DNA of 64,000 nt from Lachnospiraceae bacterium. Lineage in GTDB: Bacteria; Bacillota; Clostridia; Lachnospirales; Lachnospiraceae. Location of the stretch: NCBI GenBank assembly GCA_017396555.1, contig JAFQLS010000007.1:28196-92195 (forward strand), written 5' to 3'. How positions within the stretch are numbered: the first letter of the stretch is position 1; every line of letters starts with the position of its first letter. A program made the position numbers and the translations under genes. The notes beneath the pieces are model-generated. The model saw nothing but the letters and a program-made list of their open reading frames with translations, made no database searches and was not told where the DNA came from. Of this stretch, positions 710-10,202 are shown one piece after another.

Positions 710-3709
710 CTAATTTATTTTAGTTTTTATCTGTGCTATTAGCTCAGCAGCATTATCAGACTCCAGATTAAGCACACAAATTGCTAATTTATCAAACAAA
801 TCTACTAACTCAGGTTCGTATTCAAATTGTTTAAGATATGCCATTAACTCATCTGATTTATCAATATCCATTTCCTCAAGAGCAACTGTTAATTCCTCAA
901 GTTTACTTATTATTTCTGAAATGTCTTCAATAGGTATCAGCTGTACTTCCTCTTTGTACATAGAAAGCTTATCTTTATAGCTTCTCCATTCTTCCAGGAA
1001 GGTTGGAGTCATATATTTTATTACTTCAAGTTTGCCGTCCTTTGCCGCATATTCTAATGTCTTAGCCATTCCGCTTAACATAATAGCACCAATATAAGCG
1101 GCAGAACTCTTCATGGCATGAACTTTAATTCTGTAGGAATCTAACATTTCGGTGTTATCTTCTGCATATTCCCAATAATATTCCAGATAATCTGCTTCGG
1201 AATCAATTGTGTTATAAAAGTTTTTGACAGTGATTTCAAGAGTTTCTTTGTCTGGCATATTAGCCAGGGCAAATGACCAGTTAATACCATCAATTTCTGG
1301 AAAACTGTTTATATCTTCTGGGTATGTTTTTTCAGAAGTTGTTGCATCTGTTATTTCTTCATACATTACTAATTCTTCAGGTAAATATTTGACAATCATT
1401 TCTTCAAGCTTTTCAATCTGAATTGGTTTAGTCAAAAATTCATTAAAGCCTTCGTTTAGATACATTTCTTTGGCACCTGAAATTGCATTGGCAGTAAGTG
1501 CCACAATAGGTACATTTTCACAAGCATGTCCAGACATGTTTTTAATTCTGTGCAGTGTTTCAATACCATCCATTTCAGGCATCATATGGTCAAGGAAAAT
1601 GATATCATAGTGAATATCTTTGATTTTTTCAAGACATTCCATACCACTTTCAGCTTCGTCTATTTTAACCTTTGTTTCTTTTAAAAGACTCATGAATACT
1701 TTACGATTAATCATATTGTCATCAACTACAAGTAGTTTAGCTTCAGGTGCCACAAAGGATGCAGCATATGAATATTGAGAAGATGAATTACTAATTCTTT
1801 CTTCTAAATTACCAATAGGTTCCTTATCAATCACTTGCTGCTTAAGTACAAAGGAGAACTTAGAACCTTTTCCGTATACACTTTCAACCTTGAGTTCGCT
1901 ATCCATAAGCTTAAGAAGTTGTAAGGTGATACTCATTCCAAGTCCGGTTCCTTCAATGTTTCTATTTCTTTCTTCTTCAATTCTTTCAAATCTTTCAAAT
2001 AATTTTGATAAGTCTTCCTCTTTAATACCTATACCTGTATCTTCAACTTCAAAAAAGATATTTACATAATCACCGTCTATAGTTCCGTCTACTGTAAGTG
2101 TTATGCCACCTTCTTTAGTGTATTTTACAGCATTTGTTAAAAGATTTACCAGAATCTGTCTGATTCTAATTTCATCACCATACACTTTGTGTGGAAGGTT
2201 TGGATTAACATTAACCTTCATACCTAAATCTTTGTCTTTAGCCTTTACCATAATCATAGTAACAACGTCATGTATTATGCTGCTGAATTCATATTCAACA
2301 GGAATGATTTCCATTTTACCGGATTCTATCTTAGAAAAATCCAAAATGTCATTTATGAGATAGAGTAGTGTCTGGCTTGCGTTTTGGATATTCATTGCAT
2401 ATTCTTTGATGGATGAGTCTTTGCTTTCGCGAAGAATCATAGCATCCATTCCGAGGATTGCATTTATAGGAGTCCTTATTTCGTGAGACATATTTGCAAG
2501 AAACTTACCCTTTGCCTGATTAGAAAGTATTGCTGTTTGTTTTTCCTTTTCTATACTAAATATATCCTTCATTGTATTTATAAATGAAATGATAAGAACT
2601 AATACCATTGCTACTGCAATTATGGAACCGCTAAATTGTGTGGTCCATTTAAAATATAATACGATTTGAATTACGGCAGATAAGCATACGCCAAGTATAC
2701 CCAGCGCAACAAGTAAATAATCCTTTATTCTACCTATAATAACATCTCTTATCATTGTAAATGCCATTAATGCCATTGATGCACCAGCTATACTAACCAT
2801 AACAGTTATGGTATCAGAGAAATCTACAATATTTCTGACATGAAGTACTGTGCATACAACAAAGTCAATAATGCCGGCAGTTATTGCAACTAGATATGCC
2901 TTAGAATATCTTTCGGATTGAACCTGATTTAAATATAACATAAATGGTATTGCAAGAAGCATTACCATAAAAAAGGCCATATCACTTATTACGGATATAT
3001 TTGGAAAAATCATTTGTCTAAATACTGAATTGGCAATTATCCATATTGCTGCTAAAAAGATAGCCCATCCCAGATATTCCATTTCTACACTTTTACGGTA
3101 ACAAATTTTCAATGCAATACTTATCACAATACTCGCAAGTCCGAGAACTAATACAAATAAAGCGATAATTAGCTCAACCCCTCCTTTTTCAAATAAATAC
3201 TTAAAAATATCTATCATTTCCCCGTAAAAAATTTCATGTAAAACACCTGTATATGAAGTATCCGTACTTATTTCAACTCTGATGGTTTTTCCGGCATCTT
3301 CTGAATCAAGATGGACATATACATAAGCAACAGCACTAACACGACCAAATGGTCTTGTATCTTTTGTTGAATATTCCTGTCTTAATTCGTCATCTATGTA
3401 TATTTTCATTTCTTGTTTAGAGCTTCTAAAGCACATATATAAATTATCTTCAAGAACAGATGGTAAGACGTTTTCTATCACCATCGTCTGGTTACGCTCT
3501 ACCGGATTTTTACCCGGAAGTTCAGCAGGAACTGTTGTATCATCTTCCTTTATCCATATCCAACCCTCAGAAAAATCTGTACATCCAAAGGATGTATTTT
3601 GATTTTCAGCCGGTAAAAGCATTTCTCCCAGAATAAGGTAAAGACATACACCAACTGCTAACAAAACAAATATTATTTTAGAAATAAGTATACCTTTGTT
3701 TTTTTTCAT
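710..3709 (-). CDS. Hybrid sensor histidine kinase (7TM sensor, HisKA, HATPase, REC, Hpt)
   Basis: A 999-residue membrane phosphorelay protein. Residues about 8-28 form an N-terminal membrane segment, followed by an extracellular region to about 175 and a bundle of about seven hydrophobic helices to about 390, the plan of 7TMR-DISM-type sensors. The dimerisation box MSHEIRTPINAIL places the phospho-accepting His at 409. The kinase domain shows NLLTNAVKYT, DTGIGI and GTGLGMSI. A receiver domain starts near LLVVDDN with the phospho-Asp in FLDHMMPEMDG at 707. The C-terminal Hpt domain carries HAMKSSAAYIGA with His864. A complete His-Asp-His relay is therefore present in one chain. No DNA-binding regulator is adjacent, so its output and ligand cannot be read here. 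It is transcribed alone, away from thrS. Confidence 0.93.
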   Translation of the reverse strand: MKKNKGILISKIIFVLLAVGVCLYLILGEMLLPAENQNTSFGCTDFSEGWIWIKEDDTTVPAELPGKNPVERNQTMVIENVLPSVLEDNLYMCFRSSKQEMKIYIDDELRQEYSTKDTRPFGRVSAVAYVYVHLDSEDAGKTIRVEISTDTSYTGVLHEIFYGEMIDIFKYLFEKGGVELIIALFVLVLGLASIVISIALKICYRKSVEMEYLGWAIFLAAIWIIANSVFRQMIFPNISVISDMAFFMVMLLAIPFMLYLNQVQSERYSKAYLVAITAGIIDFVVCTVLHVRNIVDFSDTITVMVSIAGASMALMAFTMIRDVIIGRIKDYLLVALGILGVCLSAVIQIVLYFKWTTQFSGSIIAVAMVLVLIISFINTMKDIFSIEKEKQTAILSNQAKGKFLANMSHEIRTPINAILGMDAMILRESKDSSIKEYAMNIQNASQTLLYLINDILDFSKIESGKMEIIPVEYEFSSIIHDVVTMIMVKAKDKDLGMKVNVNPNLPHKVYGDEIRIRQILVNLLTNAVKYTKEGGITLTVDGTIDGDYVNIFFEVEDTGIGIKEEDLSKLFERFERIEEERNRNIEGTGLGMSITLQLLKLMDSELKVESVYGKGSKFSFVLKQQVIDKEPIGNLEERISNSSSQYSYAASFVAPEAKLLVVDDNMINRKVFMSLLKETKVKIDEAESGMECLEKIKDIHYDIIFLDHMMPEMDGIETLHRIKNMSGHACENVPIVALTANAISGAKEMYLNEGFNEFLTKPIQIEKLEEMIVKYLPEELVMYEEITDATTSEKTYPEDINSFPEIDGINWSFALANMPDKETLEITVKNFYNTIDSEADYLEYYWEYAEDNTEMLDSYRIKVHAMKSSAAYIGAIMLSGMAKTLEYAAKDGKLEVIKYMTPTFLEEWRSYKDKLSMYKEEVQLIPIEDISEIISKLEELTVALEEMDIDKSDELMAYLKQFEYEPELVDLFDKLAICVLNLESDNAAELIAQIKTKIN

Positions 3710-3804
3710 GATTCATCACCCCGTAAATATTGTATTTTGAAATAAGTATAAAATTATTATAACTATTTTGTGGGGGAAGGTCAAATTATATAGGGTGTTT
3801 TTTG

Positions 3805-3833
3805 TTGACAATAAGAAAATGTTATGCTAAAAT
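3805..3833 (+). promoter_or_regulatory. SigA-type promoter of the thrS T-box transcript
   Basis: TTGACA at 3805-3810 and TAAAAT at 3828-3833 are separated by 17 bp. The predicted start near 3840 falls just before the T-box Stem I sequence. Confidence 0.8.
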
Positions 3834-3839
3834 CCACTA

Positions 3840-4096
3840 CAATAACATAAGAAAAGCGATGACGGAAAAAAGTAGTTTAGAAGGAAGCATCCAGAGAGAA
3901 TAGCAAATGGTGGAAGCTATTTATGTGTAAACTAGACGAAAACCATTCCAGAGCTGTAATGCCGAAGTTAGTAAGTGTTGCCGTATGCCTGCGTTAAAGG
4001 ATAGGATTTAATAGAATCTGAAGTGAAAAGTTAAGGTGGAACCGTGCTAAATGCACCCTTAAGACTATTTTATTATGGTCTTGTGGGTGCTTTTTT
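3840..4096 (+). ncRNA. T-box riboswitch (threonine specifier) upstream of thrS
   Basis: A tRNA-sensing leader. The T-box core AGGTGGAACCGTG lies at 4034-4046. Stem I can be followed: TAGTTTA near 3870 pairs with TAAACTA at 3928-3934, AATAGC pairs with GCTATT, and the AGAG and GGTGGAAGC distal-loop elements lie between. Immediately 3' is GAAAACCATTCCAGAG, the usual form of a specifier region, giving codon ACC (Thr) at 3942-3944. The antiterminator pairs TTAAGGTG (4031-4038) with CACCCTTAA (4054-4062). The competing terminator pairs 4053-4065 with 4078-4090, followed by T6. Uncharged tRNA-Thr should favour antitermination and raise ThrRS synthesis. Confidence 0.93.
4053..4096 (+). terminator. 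T-box intrinsic terminator
   Basis: GCACCCTTAAGAC pairs with GTCTTGTGGGTGC and is followed by TTTTTT at 4091-4096. The 5' arm is shared with the antiterminator, the usual switch arrangement. Confidence 0.85.
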
Positions 4097-4140
4097 ACTT
4101 TATAGAAAGACCTTGTTAAAAGGCTTTCTATAAAGTAAAA
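4093..4140 (+). repeat. 17-bp perfect inverted repeat between T-box terminator and thrS RBS
   Basis: TTTTACTTTATAGAAAG (4093-4109) is exactly complementary to CTTTCTATAAAGTAAAA (4124-4140), with a small inner CCT/AGG pair. The 5' arm overlaps the T-tract of the T-box terminator, so this hairpin could form only on read-through RNA and would end about 60 nt before the RBS. It has no T-run of its own, so I do not call it a terminator. Confidence 0.7.
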
Positions 4141-4211
4141 AGTGCTCCGCAAGGATGCGCTATCTTATGTTGTTACCTAAAAAAATGAAGAATAGAAAGG
4201 AGCAACAAATT

Positions 4212-5969
4212 ATGAAGGTGCTAAGAAGAAATGGAGAAATTATTGAAGTGAATTTTGAAGATCAGGAGGGTAAAAAAGCATTTTGGCATACAAGTGCACA
4301 TGTGCTTGCACAGGCTGTAAAGCGTTTGTATCCTGAAACAAAATGTGCAATAGGTCCGGCAATTGAAAACGGATTTTATTATGATTTTGAGTTTGCATTT
4401 TCATTTTCAGAAGATCATTTGAAGGAAGTTGAAGATGAAATGAGAAGGATTGTTAAAGAGTCTTTATCATTACAGGTATTCGATAAATCAAAAGAAGAGG
4501 CATTAAGTTTTATGGCAGAGGCGAGTGAAAAGTATAAGATAGAATTAATTGAAGAACTGCCTGACTCAGAGATAATTAGTTTTTATAAGCAAGGAGAATA
4601 TGAGGAATTTTGTGCTGGACCACACATTTCTAATGTATGCCTGATTAAGGCAATCAAGCTTTTATCAGTGGCGGGTGCATATTGGAGAGGAAATGAAAAC
4701 AATTCAATGCTTACGAGAATATATGGTATATCTTTCCCGAAAGCATCGCAGTTAGAAGAATATTTGCATATGGTTGAAGAGGCAAAGGAAAGAGACCATA
4801 GGAAGCTAGGAAAGGAACTGGGAATATTTACGATTTTTGATGAGGGGCCAGGATTACCGGTATTTTTACCAAAGGGTATGGTTCTTAAAAATATTTTGGT
4901 TGACTACTGGAGAAAAATTCATCGAAGAGATGGATATGTAGAAATTTCTACGCCGATTATGTTGGAAAGAAGTCTTTGGGAAACGTCAGGACATTGGGAT
5001 TTCTATAGAGATTCCATGTACTCTCTTAAGGTAGAGGATGAGGACTATGCAATAAAGCCAATGAGTTGTCCGGGCGGAATGCTGGTCTACAAATTAGAAC
5101 CTAGGTCATATAAAGAACTTCCTATGAGAATAGGAGAGCTTGGACTTGTACATCGTAATGAAAAATCAGGAGCGCTACATGGTCTTATGAGAGTTCGTTC
5201 TTTTACGCAGGATGATGCACATATTCTTATGCGAGAAGATCAGGTGATGGATGAAATACAAGGAGTTATGCGTTTGATTGATGAGGTATATCAGAAGTTT
5301 GGGTTCTCTTATGAGATTGAATTGTCAACGAGACCAGAGCATTCAATTGGTAGTGATGAGGATTGGGAGCTTGCTACAGTTGCACTTGAAAGGGCTGTTC
5401 AGGGAATGGGAAAATCTTATGTTGTAAATGAAGGGGATGGAGCATTTTATGGACCAAAGCTAGATTTTCATTTAAAGGATTCAATAGGTAGAACGTGGCA
5501 ATGTGGGACGATTCAGCTTGATTTCCAGCTTCCACAGAGATTTAATATTGATTATATTGGTGCAGACGGAGAAAAGCATCGTCCAATAATGCTTCATAGA
5601 GTTGTGTTTGGTTCGATTGAACGTTTTATAGGTATTTTAATTGAACATTATGCAGGTAAATTTCCATCATGGATTGCACCTATTCAGGTTAAGATTCTAT
5701 CTGTCTCTGATAAATATAATGATTATGCAAAACAAGTGGCTGAATATCTTAATGAGAAGGATATACGAGTAGAAGTTGATAATAGAAGTGAGAAATTAGG
5801 TTATAAGATTCGTGAGGCTCGAATGGATAAGGTTCCATATATGATTATTGTAGGCGAAAATGAGATGAACAATGGTTCTGTTTCAGTAAGACAAAGAGAT
5901 GGGGATAAGGATAATCAGGAGCTTGGTGAAATGAAAATTGAGGAGTTTGTAGGGAGGATTTCCAGATAA
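4212..5969 (+). CDS. thrS: Threonyl-tRNA synthetase lacking the TGS domain
   Basis: Charges tRNA-Thr. I choose ATG 4212 because AAGGAGC lies just upstream; an in-frame ATG at 4155 has no RBS and would add 19 unrelated residues. The 585-residue product begins almost directly with the editing domain (HTSAH near residue 30; YEEFCAGPHISN near 135), so the N-terminal TGS domain of longer ThrRS enzymes (E. coli about 640 residues) is absent. The class II core follows with CPGGMLVYK, the motif-2 region RIGELGLVHRNEKSGALHGLMRVRSFTQDDAH (given here in two overlapping stretches: RIGELGLVHRNEKSG and ALHGLMRVRSFTQDD), HRPIMLHRVVFGSIERF, and a C-terminal anticodon-binding domain. It is controlled by the upstream T-box. 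The 53-bp direct repeat starts inside its last codons. Confidence 0.95.
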   Translation: MKVLRRNGEIIEVNFEDQEGKKAFWHTSAHVLAQAVKRLYPETKCAIGPAIENGFYYDFEFAFSFSEDHLKEVEDEMRRIVKESLSLQVFDKSKEEALSFMAEASEKYKIELIEELPDSEIISFYKQGEYEEFCAGPHISNVCLIKAIKLLSVAGAYWRGNENNSMLTRIYGISFPKASQLEEYLHMVEEAKERDHRKLGKELGIFTIFDEGPGLPVFLPKGMVLKNILVDYWRKIHRRDGYVEISTPIMLERSLWETSGHWDFYRDSMYSLKVEDEDYAIKPMSCPGGMLVYKLEPRSYKELPMRIGELGLVHRNEKSGALHGLMRVRSFTQDDAHILMREDQVMDEIQGVMRLIDEVYQKFGFSYEIELSTRPEHSIGSDEDWELATVALERAVQGMGKSYVVNEGDGAFYGPKLDFHLKDSIGRTWQCGTIQLDFQLPQRFNIDYIGADGEKHRPIMLHRVVFGSIERFIGILIEHYAGKFPSWIAPIQVKILSVSDKYNDYAKQVAEYLNEKDIRVEVDNRSEKLGYKIREARMDKVPYMIIVGENEMNNGSVSVRQRDGDKDNQELGEMKIEEFVGRISR

Positions 5970-6011
5970 TATTTAAGTGATACGAATAGTATCGTATATG
6001 TGCCGCATCGT
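5959..6011 (+). repeat. 53-bp direct repeat, copy 1 (att-like, covers thrS stop)
   Basis: Runs from TTTCCAGATAATATTTAAG to ATGTGCCGCATCGT and matches copy 2 at 8788-8840 at 49 of 53 positions by hand alignment. It includes the last codons and stop of thrS. Such a duplication at the 3' end of a housekeeping gene is what site-specific integration leaves behind, but no integrase is present, so the att interpretation is inference. Confidence 0.7.
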
Positions 6012-6057
6012 GATATAATTAAATAGATGTTAGAAATTTAGTGGAGAGGTGAAGTAT

Positions 6058-6528
6058 ATGAGATTTCGTACGCTTGAAATTAGTAGTGCGGCAGAAATAC
6101 ACATAAAAGAGAGACAATTAGAGATTACAACAGACGATGGAGTTGTAGTTGTGCCTATAGAGGACTTGAATCAGATTATGGTACATGGCGCAAATATAAG
6201 ACTTTCTACAATGGATTTGTCTATTTTATGTCAAAATAAGGTCGCATTGATGACACTGGATGACAGATATTTACCGACAGCTATTGTGTTGTCTTTTGAA
6301 GGTCATACGAGGCAGTCAAAATTGATGCATGCACAAGTTAATGCTGCGCATAAAAAATATATGGAGTTATGGATTGATATTATTAAGCAAAAGATAACCA
6401 ATCAATCAAGAGGTTTGTCTATTATGGGCTTGGACGGTGCAGAAAGAATCGCAGAATATGTAGCAATGGTTGATGAGGAAAGTGTAGATTATTGTGAATC
6501 ATTAGCTGCTAAAGAGTATTTTTCATAG
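6058..6528 (+). pseudogene. cas1: Truncated Cas1 (type II-like), N-terminal half only
   Basis: Cas1 integrates spacers into CRISPR arrays as a complex with Cas2. Residues 1-80 give the N-terminal beta domain (RTLEISSAAEIHIKERQLEI, PIEDLNQIMVHGANIRLS, ALMTLDDRYLPT); the linker and first helices follow (VNAAHKKYMELWIDIIKQKI), then DYCESLAAKEYF, which supplies the first catalytic Glu. A TAG ends it after about 156 residues, whereas Cas1 is normally near 290; the His and Asp/Glu metal ligands of the C-terminal half are missing. No cas9, cas2 or repeat array is in the window. ATG 6058 has GGAGAGG in front; a GTG at 6049 is the alternative. Remnant status is strongly supported. Confidence 0.85.
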
Positions 6529-6551
6529 TGTGGAAAATCACGGTTGAATGA

Positions 6552-6800
6552 TGCAACAAAATGGAGCATTGTTCAACAGAAAATCATGGATTTAGATATA
6601 CACAGATGTACGGTAAAGCTCGAATGGAAATGAAAGTCGGGTTGACCTTTGCGTGTATGAATTTAAAGAAACTAGCGAAAATAGTACATAAAAGAAGTAA
6701 TTTAGATGGTGCTTGTTCGTCTATCTTTAAGCTTGTCGATAATTTAATGGATATACAAAGTGTAAATAAAAGAAAAGTGGCGCTTGTACTTGTGTCCTAA
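6552..6800 (+). pseudogene. IS1182-type transposase, C-terminal remnant
   Basis: The frame reads HGFRYTQMYGKARMEMKVGL followed by TFACMNLKKLAKI, which matches the typical end of IS1182-family DDE transposases (HGxRYTxYRGLxKV...FACMNLKKLA). Everything upstream, including the catalytic core, is missing. The DNA after the stop, with a GTCTACAGTCTGA sequence at 6810-6822, probably includes the old IS end. The fragment lies directly behind the broken cas1, so an IS insertion followed by deletion is a plausible cause of the cas1 loss. Confidence 0.75.
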
Positions 6801-6822
6801 CACCACTTTGTCTACAGTCTGA

Positions 6823-6839
6823 ATCCGGCTATGCCGGAT
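6823..6839. repeat. ATCCGGC-TAT-GCCGGAT palindrome, copy 1
   Basis: A 7-bp perfect inverted repeat with a 3-nt loop. The core CCGGCTATGCCGG recurs at 7464-7476 in the same orientation, so the two copies bracket the YefM-YoeB genes. Confidence 0.7.
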
Positions 6840-6860
6840 AATAATAATTAAAAGAAATAA

Positions 6861-6909
6861 TTGACGTACAGAAAAATGTACGTTATAATAAAAGTACAGA
6901 AATATGTAC
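6861..6909 (+). promoter_or_regulatory. yefM-yoeB promoter with two operator palindromes
   Basis: TTGACG (6861-6866) and TATAAT (6884-6889) are spaced by 17 bp. Two matching palindromes of the form GTACA-N6-TGTAC lie at 6866-6881, inside the promoter spacer, and at 6894-6909, just past the -10. YefM-type antitoxins are known to recognise TGTACA-centred sites, so both are likely autorepression operators for the YefM-YoeB complex. Confidence 0.82.
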
Positions 6910-6928
6910 TTAAAAAGGAGATGAGGAT

Positions 6929-7195
6929 ATGTTAGCAGTAAACTATACAAATCTACGTGATAATATGAAAAGTTATATGGATAGGATTACAGAAGATTAT
7001 GAAACTGTAATAGTAACAAGAAAAGATAACAAAAATGTTGTTATGCTATCTCAGGAATCCTATAATAATCTGATGGAAAATATTCATGTTATGGGTAACA
7101 AATCAAATTTTGATTGGTTAATGGAATCAAAAGCACAGTTGGAAAATGGAAATATATCAGTCCGTGATCTTGTTGAGGTAGATTCTGATGAATAA
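6929..7195 (+). CDS. yefM: Antitoxin of the Phd/YefM family
   Basis: An 88-residue antitoxin. The N-terminal DNA-binding fold is clear (AVNYTNLRDNMKSYMDRITE, then ETVIVTRKDNKNVVMLSQESYNNL), and the acidic C-terminal tail would wrap the toxin. ATG 6929 follows AAAAGGAGATGAG. The stop overlaps the toxin start by 8 bp, giving translational coupling with more antitoxin than toxin. It should repress its own promoter through the two GTACA-N6-TGTAC palindromes. It is intact although its neighbourhood is full of gene fragments, as expected for a selfish module. Confidence 0.93.
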   Translation: MLAVNYTNLRDNMKSYMDRITEDYETVIVTRKDNKNVVMLSQESYNNLMENIHVMGNKSNFDWLMESKAQLENGNISVRDLVEVDSDE

Positions 7196-7451
7196 GATTT
7201 TTACAAGTAATGGATGGAAGGATTATACCTATTGGCAAACAGAAGATAGAAAGACTCTAAAAAAAATAAATCAGCTAATAGAAGACATCTGCAGAAATGG
7301 AAACGAAGGAATAGGTAAGCCAGAACCTCTTACGGGAAACTTGTTAGGCTATTGGAGTAGGCGTATTAATGACAAGGATAGACTTATATATAAGATAGAT
7401 GAAAGTAATGTATATATCTTAGCCTGTAGATATCATTATGGGGATAAATAA
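7188..7451 (+). CDS. yoeB: YoeB-family ribosome-dependent mRNA interferase toxin
   Basis: An 87-residue toxin that in E. coli binds the ribosomal A site and cuts mRNA. The sequence aligns with E. coli YoeB almost without gaps: KINxLIxDIxRN, GKPEPLxxNLxGYWSRRI, RLIYxI and the C-terminal ACRYHY. The functional residues fall at the E. coli numbers: Glu46, Arg65, His83 and Tyr84. All are present, so the toxin looks active. It is the second gene of the yefM-yoeB operon. A CCGGC-TAT-GCCGG hairpin lies just after the stop. Confidence 0.95.
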   Translation: MNKIFTSNGWKDYTYWQTEDRKTLKKINQLIEDICRNGNEGIGKPEPLTGNLLGYWSRRINDKDRLIYKIDESNVYILACRYHYGDK

Positions 7452-7463
7452 CACACATAAAAT

Positions 7464-7476
7464 CCGGCTATGCCGG
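7464..7476. repeat. CCGGC-TAT-GCCGG palindrome, copy 2
   Basis: Second copy of the hairpin found at 6823-6839, with the same ATCCGGCTATGCCGG core, placed 13 bp after the yoeB stop. Confidence 0.65.
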
Positions 7477-7565
7477 TCTATCATAAACTTGGTTTTACAG
7501 ATACAGATGTGGCGCAAGTAATAAATGGCTTAAGATTTACGCGATGGTCTATAAAATGTAAATGA
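7470..7565 (+). pseudogene. Possible 31-codon gene remnant
   Basis: In this frame the DNA reads YHKLGFTDTDVAQVINGLRF and ends TRWSIKCK-stop. It looks protein-like (helix-forming, mixed charge) but has no RBS, and its only ATG lies inside the palindrome, so it is probably the tail of a gene whose front was lost when the TA module arrived. I cannot name the family. Confidence 0.3.
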
Positions 7566-7579
7566 TAAATTCAGTAAAT

Positions 7580-7609
7580 ATCAATATAAATCAATACGTA
7601 TCAATATAT
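7580..7609. repeat. Three 10-bp iteron-like tandem repeats
   Basis: ATCAATATAA, ATCAATACGT and ATCAATATAT follow each other without gaps, sharing ATCAATA at exactly one helical turn. Phased iterons of this type are bound by replication initiators or regulators. No rep gene is present, so their role is open. Confidence 0.5.
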
Positions 7610-7685
7610 CCGCTTATAAAGTAATGGAAATGTTTAAGGAATTTTCAGTTTTTTTAATGTTTTTTTTTAACAGTTAATACAAAAA

Positions 7686-7786
7686 TTAGGGAACTTATGA
7701 TGGTGAAAAACATCAAAAAGTTCCCTAAAATTATATTGATATTTAGGGAACTTTTGGGTATGATATACAGTATAAAAGTTCCCTAA
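7686..7786 (+). promoter_or_regulatory. fic promoter embedded in four operator-like half-sites
   Basis: The half-site TTAGGGAACTT occurs at 7686-7696 and 7743-7753, and its complement AAGTTCCCTAA at 7718-7728 and 7776-7786, forming two inverted-repeat pairs; the second has 13-bp arms (7743-7755 with 7774-7786). A promoter TTGATA (7736-7741), 17 bp, TATGAT (7759-7764) lies so that the third half-site fills the spacer and the -10 sits between half-sites three and four. A repressor bound here would block RNA polymerase. The regulator is not identified; the Fic protein itself is one candidate. Confidence 0.7.
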
Positions 7787-7804
7787 CGAAAAGAGGTGTT
7801 AGAA

Positions 7805-8743
7805 ATGGGTGCAAATTATTCAGAGATTCAAGAACTATTGCAGCAAAGAGCAGATATACAAGCGAGACTAAATTTAATACCATATGACGGTAATCCGGAA
7901 ATTAAAGAAGTAAGTGGTACAAAGTATTTATATATCAGGAAAAGAGTAGCAGGTAAATTAACATCTACGTATGTTGATGTTTATTCGGATGAGTTATATC
8001 AGATACTTTTACGTAATGCAAAAGAGAGAAAAGATTTAAATAAAAACATTCGTAAAATAAATAAAGATTTGGTATCTCTTGGTTATGAGGACAAGGAACT
8101 TTCAGCAAGAGTGATGCAAAATTTAGATTTTGTAAGAGCAAATATGAAAGCAAATATTTATGACCAAGCAGTTTTAGAAGGTGTCGCAACATCATTTCCA
8201 CAGACAAAAGATATTATTGAAAACGGACAGGTTCATGGAGTGTCTGCAACAGATGTGCAAAAGATTCTTAATCTGAAACATGCATGGGAATTTATTCTTG
8301 ATAGAGATGTAATACAAAGTGAAAGTAACTATCATATGTTATGCCATATTGCTAAATTGGTAAACGAGGGTTTCTTTTATGATGGTGGACGTATCAGAGG
8401 CATCCCGGTACAGATAGGCGGAACAAGTTATGTTCCACCGCTTCCAATTGAGACGGTGGTTATCGAGCGAATTGATGAAATAAGAAATCAAGAAAAAGAG
8501 CCGATAGATATAGCAATCGAACTTTGTATGTATTGTATGAAGACACAGGTTTTTAAGGACGGTAATAAGAGAGCATCCGTGATATTTGCAAATCATTATC
8601 TGATAGCAAAGGGAAATGGTTTCTTAGTAATACCGGAGAAAGAAGTGCTGGAGTTTAAGAAACTGTTGATAGAGTATTATGAGGGTGCACCATTAGAGGT
8701 TATAGGTACATTCTTACGTAATAAATGTTGGAAAAATTTTTAA
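7805..8743 (+). CDS. Fic/DOC-family protein with Gln in place of the Fic-motif His
   Basis: Fic proteins usually transfer AMP or other phosphate groups onto target proteins using HxFx(D/E)GNxR. This 312-residue protein has a helical N-terminal region (YSEIQELLQQRADIQARLNL), a linker with FDGGRIRG-like FYDGGRIRG near 195, and the Fic core with QVFKDGNKRASVIFANHYL. The first position of the motif is Gln248 instead of His, while Phe250, Asp252, Gly253, Asn254 and Arg256 are kept. Gln-type variants are frequent among Fic proteins of gut Firmicutes, but their chemistry is uncertain. ATG 7805 follows AAGAGGTG; a GTG at 7796 overlaps that RBS. It is the last gene inside the repeat-bounded island. 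Confidence 0.85.
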   Translation: MGANYSEIQELLQQRADIQARLNLIPYDGNPEIKEVSGTKYLYIRKRVAGKLTSTYVDVYSDELYQILLRNAKERKDLNKNIRKINKDLVSLGYEDKELSARVMQNLDFVRANMKANIYDQAVLEGVATSFPQTKDIIENGQVHGVSATDVQKILNLKHAWEFILDRDVIQSESNYHMLCHIAKLVNEGFFYDGGRIRGIPVQIGGTSYVPPLPIETVVIERIDEIRNQEKEPIDIAIELCMYCMKTQVFKDGNKRASVIFANHYLIAKGNGFLVIPEKEVLEFKKLLIEYYEGAPLEVIGTFLRNKCWKNF

Positions 8744-8787
8744 CTTTAATTGAAAAAGTTATTTATATCTATGCAAAAAAGAGATAA

Positions 8788-8840
8788 TTTCTAGATAATA
8801 TTTAAGTGTTATGAATCGTATCGTATATGTGCCGCATCGT
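8788..8840 (+). repeat. 53-bp direct repeat, copy 2
   Basis: Runs from TTTCTAGATAATATTTAAG to ATGTGCCGCATCGT and matches copy 1 at 49 of 53 positions. It lies about 45 bp after the fic stop and carries a decayed copy of the thrS 3' end, so it would be the distal end of the island. Confidence 0.7.
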
Positions 8841-8907: not shown

Positions 8908-9567
8908 ATGAAAAAAAGAAGAAAAAGTTTGTTATTTATTGGTGGAGTGATAATTGTTGCATTTGCCATTTGGACAATATTGGTTCAAGTGGTAGATGTG
9001 CAACCCATAGGACAAAATGGTACGAATATAGGATTTGCTACATTTAATAGTTGGTTTCACAAGCTCATAGGAGTACATTTGAAATTGTACATTATAACAG
9101 ATTGGCTTGGGCTTGTTCCGATATTTGTATGTGTGATATTTGCAGGTATAGGACTAACTCAGTTAATTACGAGAAAAAGTCTGTTTAAAGTGGATTATGA
9201 TATTTTGATTTTAGGTGTGTATTATTTAATAGTTATAACTTGCTATGTCGTTTTTGAAATGTATCCCATCAATTACAGACCACTGCTTATAGAGGGAGTA
9301 CTTGAAGCTTCATATCCGTCTTCAACGACATTACTTGTATTAAGCGTTATGCCAACTTTAAATTTTGAAGTAAAGAGAAGAATAGATAGTATTTTATTAG
9401 AGAAGATAATCTGCGCTATTACAAATGCTTTTTCTGCATTTATGGTAGTGGGCAGATTATTTTCAGGTGTACATTGGTTTACAGATATTGTGGGTTCTGT
9501 TATTCTTAGTGTAGGCCTGTTTTGTGTTTATAAAGCTATTATTTATTTATATTATAAAGAAAATTAA
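8908..9567 (+). CDS. PAP2-superfamily membrane phosphatase
   Basis: A 219-residue integral membrane protein with about six hydrophobic helices. The acid-phosphatase signature appears as YRP near 128, YPSSTT (motif 2, PSxxT-like) near 138, and GRLFSGVHWFTDIVGS near 185, the SRxxxxxHxxxD-like third motif with its catalytic His. Such enzymes remove phosphate from lipid phosphates such as undecaprenyl pyrophosphate or phosphatidic acid on the outer membrane face; the substrate cannot be told here. ATG 8908 follows AGGAGGACATAAA. It is the first gene of a seven-gene same-strand run ending at 13740, and the first gene beyond the island's right-hand repeat. Confidence 0.85.
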   Translation: MKKRRKSLLFIGGVIIVAFAIWTILVQVVDVQPIGQNGTNIGFATFNSWFHKLIGVHLKLYIITDWLGLVPIFVCVIFAGIGLTQLITRKSLFKVDYDILILGVYYLIVITCYVVFEMYPINYRPLLIEGVLEASYPSSTTLLVLSVMPTLNFEVKRRIDSILLEKIICAITNAFSAFMVVGRLFSGVHWFTDIVGSVILSVGLFCVYKAIIYLYYKEN

Positions 9568-9581
9568 GTTGGAGATATTAT

Positions 9582-10202
9582 ATGGAATTTAATGAAAAGC
9601 TTCAGGAATTAAGAAAGTTAAAAGGTCTTACACAGGAAGAATTGGCAAAGGAGTTGTATGTGTCTAGAACTGCTATATCAAAATGGGAATCAGGAAGAGG
9701 ATATCCTAACATAGATTCATTAAAGGCTATAGCGAACTATTTTGAGGTGACAATTGATGATTTGCTATCAGGAGAAAAAATAATTTCTATTGCTGAAAAA
9801 GAGAACAAATCGAATATTAGAAATATATGCAATTTGTTATTTGGAATTATGGATGTTATGTCTTTTTTATTAATCATTTTGCCACTTTATCCAAATGAGG
9901 TTGGTGAATATATTTATTCTGTTAATTTATTTAGTTACACACAGATAAATTCAGTTAATTATGTGATATATTGGATTGTATTTGTTTCTTTGATTTTAAA
10001 TGGTATAATAAAGATTATATTTACAGAATTTGGTTACGAAAAAGGCAATAAAATTGCAACAAGCATTTCTATGATAATTAGTATTTTGCTGGTGCTATTT
10101 TTAGCTATGACAAGAGAAGCGTATGCGATAATAATTGCATTTTTATTGTTTGTAATAAAAGGTGTATTGTATTCTAAATGTAAAACTTTGGGAGGAAGGT
10201 AA
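9582..10202 (+). CDS. Xre-type HTH regulator with C-terminal membrane helices
   Basis: Residues 1-65 form a Cro/CI-type HTH (LRKLKGLTQEELAKELYVSR, then TAISKWESGRGYP), followed by DDLLSGEKI, the common end of this domain. Residues about 85-205 contain four hydrophobic segments. Small HTH-plus-membrane proteins of this kind are common in Firmicutes and usually act as membrane-tethered regulators. It starts 14 bp after the PAP2 gene and stops 2 bp before the Nudix gene, so it is probably co-transcribed and may regulate this operon. Its ligand and targets are not visible. Confidence 0.85.
   Translation: MEFNEKLQELRKLKGLTQEELAKELYVSRTAISKWESGRGYPNIDSLKAIANYFEVTIDDLLSGEKIISIAEKENKSNIRNICNLLFGIMDVMSFLLIILPLYPNEVGEYIYSVNLFSYTQINSVNYVIYWIVFVSLILNGIIKIIFTEFGYEKGNKIATSISMIISILLVLFLAMTREAYAIIIAFLLFVIKGVLYSKCKTLGGR

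Follow-up and report, generated by a model that had tools for sequence, protein, structure and literature searches.

Tyrosine integrases are described as targeting guaA, tatD, ebfC and the genes of ribosomal proteins and tRNAs (PMC5357655). Integrative and mobilizable elements (IMEs) seated at the ends of protein genes, guaA for example, show direct repeats, one of which carries the stop codon, around a cargo of accessory genes. A locus of similar appearance lies in a 64,000-nucleotide (nt) stretch of a Lachnospiraceae bacterium genome (contig JAFQLS010000007.1, positions 28,196 to 92,195; hereafter the window). Here, two direct repeats enclose an island between the threonyl-tRNA synthetase gene thrS and a PAP2-XRE unit, comprising genes for a PAP2-superfamily membrane phosphatase and an XRE-type regulator. 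Unlike in such elements, no integrase, relaxase or replication gene was found in the island, and conservation of the repeat is seen in PAP2 leaders but not in thrS homologues. We consider it somewhat better than an even chance that the repeats are a duplicated PAP2-XRE control region, arising at the thrS-PAP2 junction by duplication or recombination, after which accessory DNA moved in as a replacement.

The repeat search of the window identified a direct repeat of 61 nt (5951–6011 and 8780–8840) with 89% identity and a spacing of 2829 nt. Its best 53-nt stretch (left copy 5959–6011, right copy 8788–8840, both on the plus strand) is identical at 49 positions, vs. 35 for the best 53-nt pair obtained when the 4.5 kb in question were dinucleotide-shuffled 20 times. 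The first 11 nt of the left copy overlap the end of thrS, and the thrS stop codon (5967–5969) is located inside it. The preliminary description of this DNA had reported both the 53-bp pair with 49 matches and the stop codon in the left copy, as well as an island holding only accessory or broken genes (a cas1 fragment, an insertion sequence (IS) fragment, YefM-YoeB and Fic); all three statements hold, the last on the evidence of profile searches. The 23-nt identical core of the repeats occurs twice in the window, and with up to three mismatches it was not matched in 100 shuffles; there were no exact matches to it in viral contigs.

The right-hand 33 nt of the repeat (5979–6011 in the left copy, 8808–8840 in the right) correspond to a conserved control region that precedes PAP2 in PAP2-XRE units. 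In the window, the PAP2 gene (8908–9567, plus strand; PF01569) is followed by its XRE-type partner (9582–10202, plus strand; HTH_3), which adjoins PAP2 in relatives as well. The comparison set comprised 397 genomes of the family, in which the genus is represented by the present genome alone. A search of this set with the sequence from 8790 onward matched six genomes, all from other genera (G101, G122, G261, G285, G005, and G393), and in all six the homology of the PAP2 region begins within the right repeat, at window position 8806/8807 (query base 17 or 18). Since the leader sequences of G285, G005, and G393 are identical, these three are not independent. Alignment defined the leader element as GAYACGAATCGTATCAC-N2-ATGTGAC followed by TTCT. 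With up to three mismatches this motif was found at 24 places in 22 of the 397 genomes (a single place in 20 of the 22), and a reversed-pattern control gave no match in the same set. PAP2 downstream of the motif was matched by tblastn at 22 of the 24 places; at L171 only the tail of XRE was matched, and at L166 about 34 codons from the start of PAP2 were recognized by eye. All 24 places precede a PAP2-XRE unit, either intact or decayed (L166, L171, and L172 are decayed, L169 is split and L167 fused). Where PAP2 was matched, the distance from the leader to the gene is about 102–116 nt at 20 loci and larger at the other two, L163 and L169. At four places (L158, L159, L161, and L164) an XRE gene precedes the motif, with no XRE match downstream of PAP2, indicating that the motif goes with PAP2. 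In the window, the right copy, located 100 nt before PAP2, differs from the motif at 5 of 24 positions and the left copy at 4.

The conserved part of the repeat is thus firmly assigned to PAP2 control DNA and is not a feature of thrS homologues. Because the conserved 33 nt precede PAP2-XRE units at 24 places, the right copy, judging by sequence comparison, sits where it belongs, and the left copy is additional and probably without a function of its own. The same data bear on a dispersed intergenic family, or a chance similarity, as the source of the repeats. Short matches to an 80-nt query did occur in 3 of 298 other genomes of the family, with E-values of 0.002–0.006 per genome, which is the level of chance. 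A search of the present genome assembly (2.34 Mb in 57 contigs, 85% complete) with the repeat yielded five extra matches of 15–27 nt each, with E-values of at least 0.087, and no third copy. With two copies in the assembly, shuffles that stop at 35 of 53, and a motif tied to PAP2-XRE units in relatives and mostly single there, this explanation is very improbable, and a dispersed repeat family was rejected.

The leader had no match to Rfam families in the window. Among 20 aligned leaders, four predicted base pairs were examined for covariation and none was changed on both sides, leaving an RNA structure unsupported. A regulatory RNA leader, considered because the single-sequence fold pairs the PAP2 start region (z −1.6), was consequently dropped. 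The absence of both an Rfam family match and covarying structure favours a DNA operator, and the PAP2-XRE leader motif could be a candidate operator for the XRE partner.

The left repeat, with its thrS stop codon, invites comparison with an attachment site at the thrS 3′ end. The preliminary description had proposed either integration into this site with later loss of the integrase, or a tandem duplication. If the island were the relic of an integrative element, the thrS-PAP2 junction would have served as the attachment site and the two copies would be attL and attR. Accessory genes flanked by direct repeats, the left of which includes the stop codon, agree with this origin, as does the occurrence of PAP2-XRE together with mobile genes in a 10.4-kb block of G005 and G393. 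In addition, according to a table in PMC3091717, plastic regions in Photorhabdus and Xenorhabdus can be bordered by thrS; a 3′-end attachment site is not stated there, and no connection to the present repeat could be made. Among 80 loci of thrS homologues, in contrast, neither the repeat motif (up to four mismatches) nor the 23-nt core (up to five mismatches) was detected, so that the repeat is not conserved with the supposed target gene. No match to any of five integrase and recombinase queries was obtained at the 80 loci; this query set is limited, and the downstream sequence covered reached about 6 kb at most. At 74 of the loci the downstream sequence extends for 1 kb or more, and one of these (L062) has a 23-nt direct repeat of the end of thrS. 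Inside the island, no integrase or recombinase was found among the listed reading frames of at least 50 amino acids (aa), nor in searches of its five main genes against Pfam, PADLOC, and NCBIfam, and the modules that it contains have their relatives in different places. Among the streptococcal IME target genes named in the consulted passages of PMC5357655, thrS does not appear. The passages returned by the literature search described neither such a PAP2 leader nor a thrS 3′-end attachment site. An integrative relic is therefore regarded as unlikely, and the data give no support for general integration at the thrS 3′ end. Of the earlier proposal, duplication at the junction fits the data better, and a site specific to thrS has the evidence against it.

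The two copies resemble each other more than any other leader: they agree at 30 of the conserved 33 nt, vs. at most 24 of 33 between either copy and any of the 24 other leaders. At 6003/8832 both carry C, a position occupied by A in every one of the 24 other leaders. If the majority base is taken as ancestral at the three differing positions, the left copy is derived at one and the right copy at two. As far as can be read from these letters, the duplication arose in this lineage or in a close relative and is not fresh, both copies having changed since.

This close relation also constrains homologous recombination of the Campbell type, in which a leader-bearing circle, for instance an element with PAP2-XRE as cargo, would have recombined with the chromosomal leader to give two copies. 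The expected product, one extra copy and one insert, is what the window shows, and the G005/G393 block provides an example of PAP2-XRE on mobilizable-looking DNA. The C shared by the copies and the stretch that they share upstream of the operator mean that the donor must have belonged to the same or a close species. Moreover, the shared stretch is short. Such an event seems improbable, though conceivable.

The duplication favoured here may have proceeded in several steps. In this lineage thrS would have come to lie directly before the PAP2 leader, and the junction, consisting of the thrS tail and the leader, would then have been duplicated, most likely when the PAP2 unit was copied locally or through recombination. 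The body of the first PAP2 unit would subsequently have been lost and replaced piecemeal by accessory DNA, namely type II CRISPR (clustered regularly interspaced short palindromic repeats) remains, an IS scrap, a toxin-antitoxin pair, and a Fic gene. Several observations weigh against this reconstruction. The replaced first unit has left no visible trace: neither PAP2 nor XRE remnants were detected inside the island, where the best matches to PAP2 have E-values of at least 0.24 and were taken as chance. Both window copies exceed the three-mismatch limit and so lie outside the 24-place count, and the leader motif is present in a minority of the genomes (22 of 397). The right copy holds the thrS-like tail letters ATTTCTAGATAA, which fit integration as well as duplication, and site-specific or homologous integration would give the same footprint. 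The locus illustrates that a footprint resembling an attachment site can be the duplicated control region of the right-hand neighbour, as revealed by comparing both flanks.

Orphan leaders with a lost or broken PAP2 body, similar to the left copy, are found at PAP2-XRE units of G079, G287, and G112. A parallel is seen in G079, where two leaders lie 1.9 kb apart upstream of a complete unit, the first with a PAP2 stub, and genes of the RsgA and acetyltransferase types are located between them. The window differs in that no PAP2 was detected at its left leader and that its insert consists of cas1, IS, toxin-antitoxin, and Fic material. The 10.4-kb block of G005 and G393 (L155, L156, and L187) is 96% identical between two genera, is located next to guaA, and comprises a tyrosine integrase gene, a Mob_Pre relaxase-type gene, PAP2-XRE, and an antitoxin-toxin pair of Phd/YefM-ParE type; its appearance is that of a mobilizable element with PAP2-XRE as cargo. 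A further proposal, which we regard as rather doubtful, is that the PAP2-XRE leader, beyond being an operator, is prone to recombination: units headed by it would undergo duplication again and again, travel on mobilizable elements, and take in accessory defence-type genes (G079, G287, G112, G005/G393, and the window). If true, it would be a hot spot to follow for the assembly of small defence islands.

The first gene of the island is a truncated type II cas1 (6061–6528, plus strand), of which only the N-terminal half is present. It matches Cas1 profiles over model positions 1–155 of 278 (type II/NMENI), with a score above the Pfam cut-off and below the NCBIfam whole-protein cut-off, as expected of a fragment, and it is the single Cas1 match in the assembly. 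A CRISPR-repeat-like 35-mer (6543–6577, plus strand), able to form a hairpin (z −5.1), follows as a single copy in this genome; it is 81–83% similar to a 36-mer downstream of cas1 in G302. The 35-nt pattern used for the own-genome count cannot match the 36-nt form, and its zero for G302 is uninformative. The combination of half a Cas1 and a lone CRISPR-repeat-like hairpin gives the first third of the island the look of a ruined type II CRISPR locus; half of cas1 and one repeat-like 35-mer do not make up a full type II CRISPR-Cas locus, and cas9 and cas2 were not searched for. The 3′ end of an IS1182-family transposase gene (6574–6683, plus strand) matches the last 35 model positions, below curated cut-offs.

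Next come a YefM-type antitoxin gene (6929–7195, plus strand; PF02604 above cut-off) and a YoeB-type toxin gene (7188–7451, plus strand; PF06769 and TIGR02116 above cut-off). The pair is bracketed by exact copies of AATCCGGCTATGCCGG at 6822–6837 and 7461–7476, in which a small hairpin was seen by eye. The last gene of the island is an intact reading frame for a Fic-family protein (7805–8743, plus strand; PF02661). Alignment to 5jj6 places Gln at the position of the catalytic His (TQVFKDGNKR), and this residue is kept in all 13 aligned homologues. The protein also has a weak PADLOC match, to PDC-S04 (E 1.3e-4). In its promoter region (7686–7786, plus strand) the repeat search found direct and inverted repeats of TTAGGGAAC. 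These TTAGGGAAC(TT) copies form an operator-like array, and similar arrays occur at several Fic homologues.

Each part of the island has relatives of its own. The Fic gene together with its promoter is matched at 83% in G094, YefM-YoeB with its promoter at 81% in G122, and the cas1 fragment at 87% over 484 nt in a 301-aa cas1 frame of G302, a locus that also shows a CRISPR-like repeat; the IS scrap is matched in many genomes. With two candidates scored per genome, some module of the island was matched in 89 of the 397 genomes, the present one counted. A second gene module was found at none of 29 module loci, with flanks fetched up to 1.5 kb. Three plasmid records and one phage record matched the island query, each covering at most 15% of it. 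The island looks like a local composite and not like a copy of a travelling unit.

The cas1 locus of G302 (L150, G302:C9:8000-22000, minus strand) contains four identical 36-nt CRISPR-repeat-like sequences (6409–6444, 5761–5796, 3612–3647, and 2535–2570), which come after the cas1 gene and a 67-aa frame, maybe cas2 as judged by eye. They are spaced 0.6–2.1 kb apart by gene pieces (bactofilin, AA-kinase/PyrH-like, and MCP), not by short spacers. The first of these pieces has only a 67% match elsewhere in G302. The arrangement could be due to a chimeric contig.

Upstream of the island, thrS (4212–5969, plus strand; TIGR00418, 716 bits) is preceded by a T-box leader (3850–4063, plus strand; Rfam RF00230, 107.5 bits, E 8.4e-24). 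The genome encodes a second threonyl-tRNA synthetase on contig C51, 46% identical to the first, and the 1.5 kb upstream of its gene contain no T-box at the Rfam gathering score. From this we infer that the window thrS is the accessory copy. According to PMC2494555, almost all of the Firmicutes examined have a T-box before thrS, and thrZ is preceded by multiple T-boxes. As with thrZ of bacilli, the window gene is one of two thrS genes and has a T-box leader; it differs in that one T-box was found before it and none, at gathering score, before the other thrS. The likeness concerns gene number and T-box.

The nearest thrS relatives share 86–90% protein identity with the window protein. The T-box-thrS unit (window 3800–5950; loci L011–L018 and L021) is 80–84% identical to the window at the DNA level and up to 97% identical between relatives. 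Ahead of the T-box, alignment among these relatives is lost beyond about 100 nt. Downstream, a 2′-5′ RNA ligase-like gene is common to L011, L012, L016, and L021; in the other near relatives homology breaks at or just after the thrS end, and L018 ends within thrS. The window thrS product ends four residues earlier than that of L011 and of several other near relatives; this would suit a native end and a replaced tail alike. With the unit conserved and its flanks differing or partly shared, it appears as if the T-box-thrS unit itself moves between genomes. The other thrS of the present genome is followed by a c-di-GMP-I riboswitch (L092, 3398–3522).

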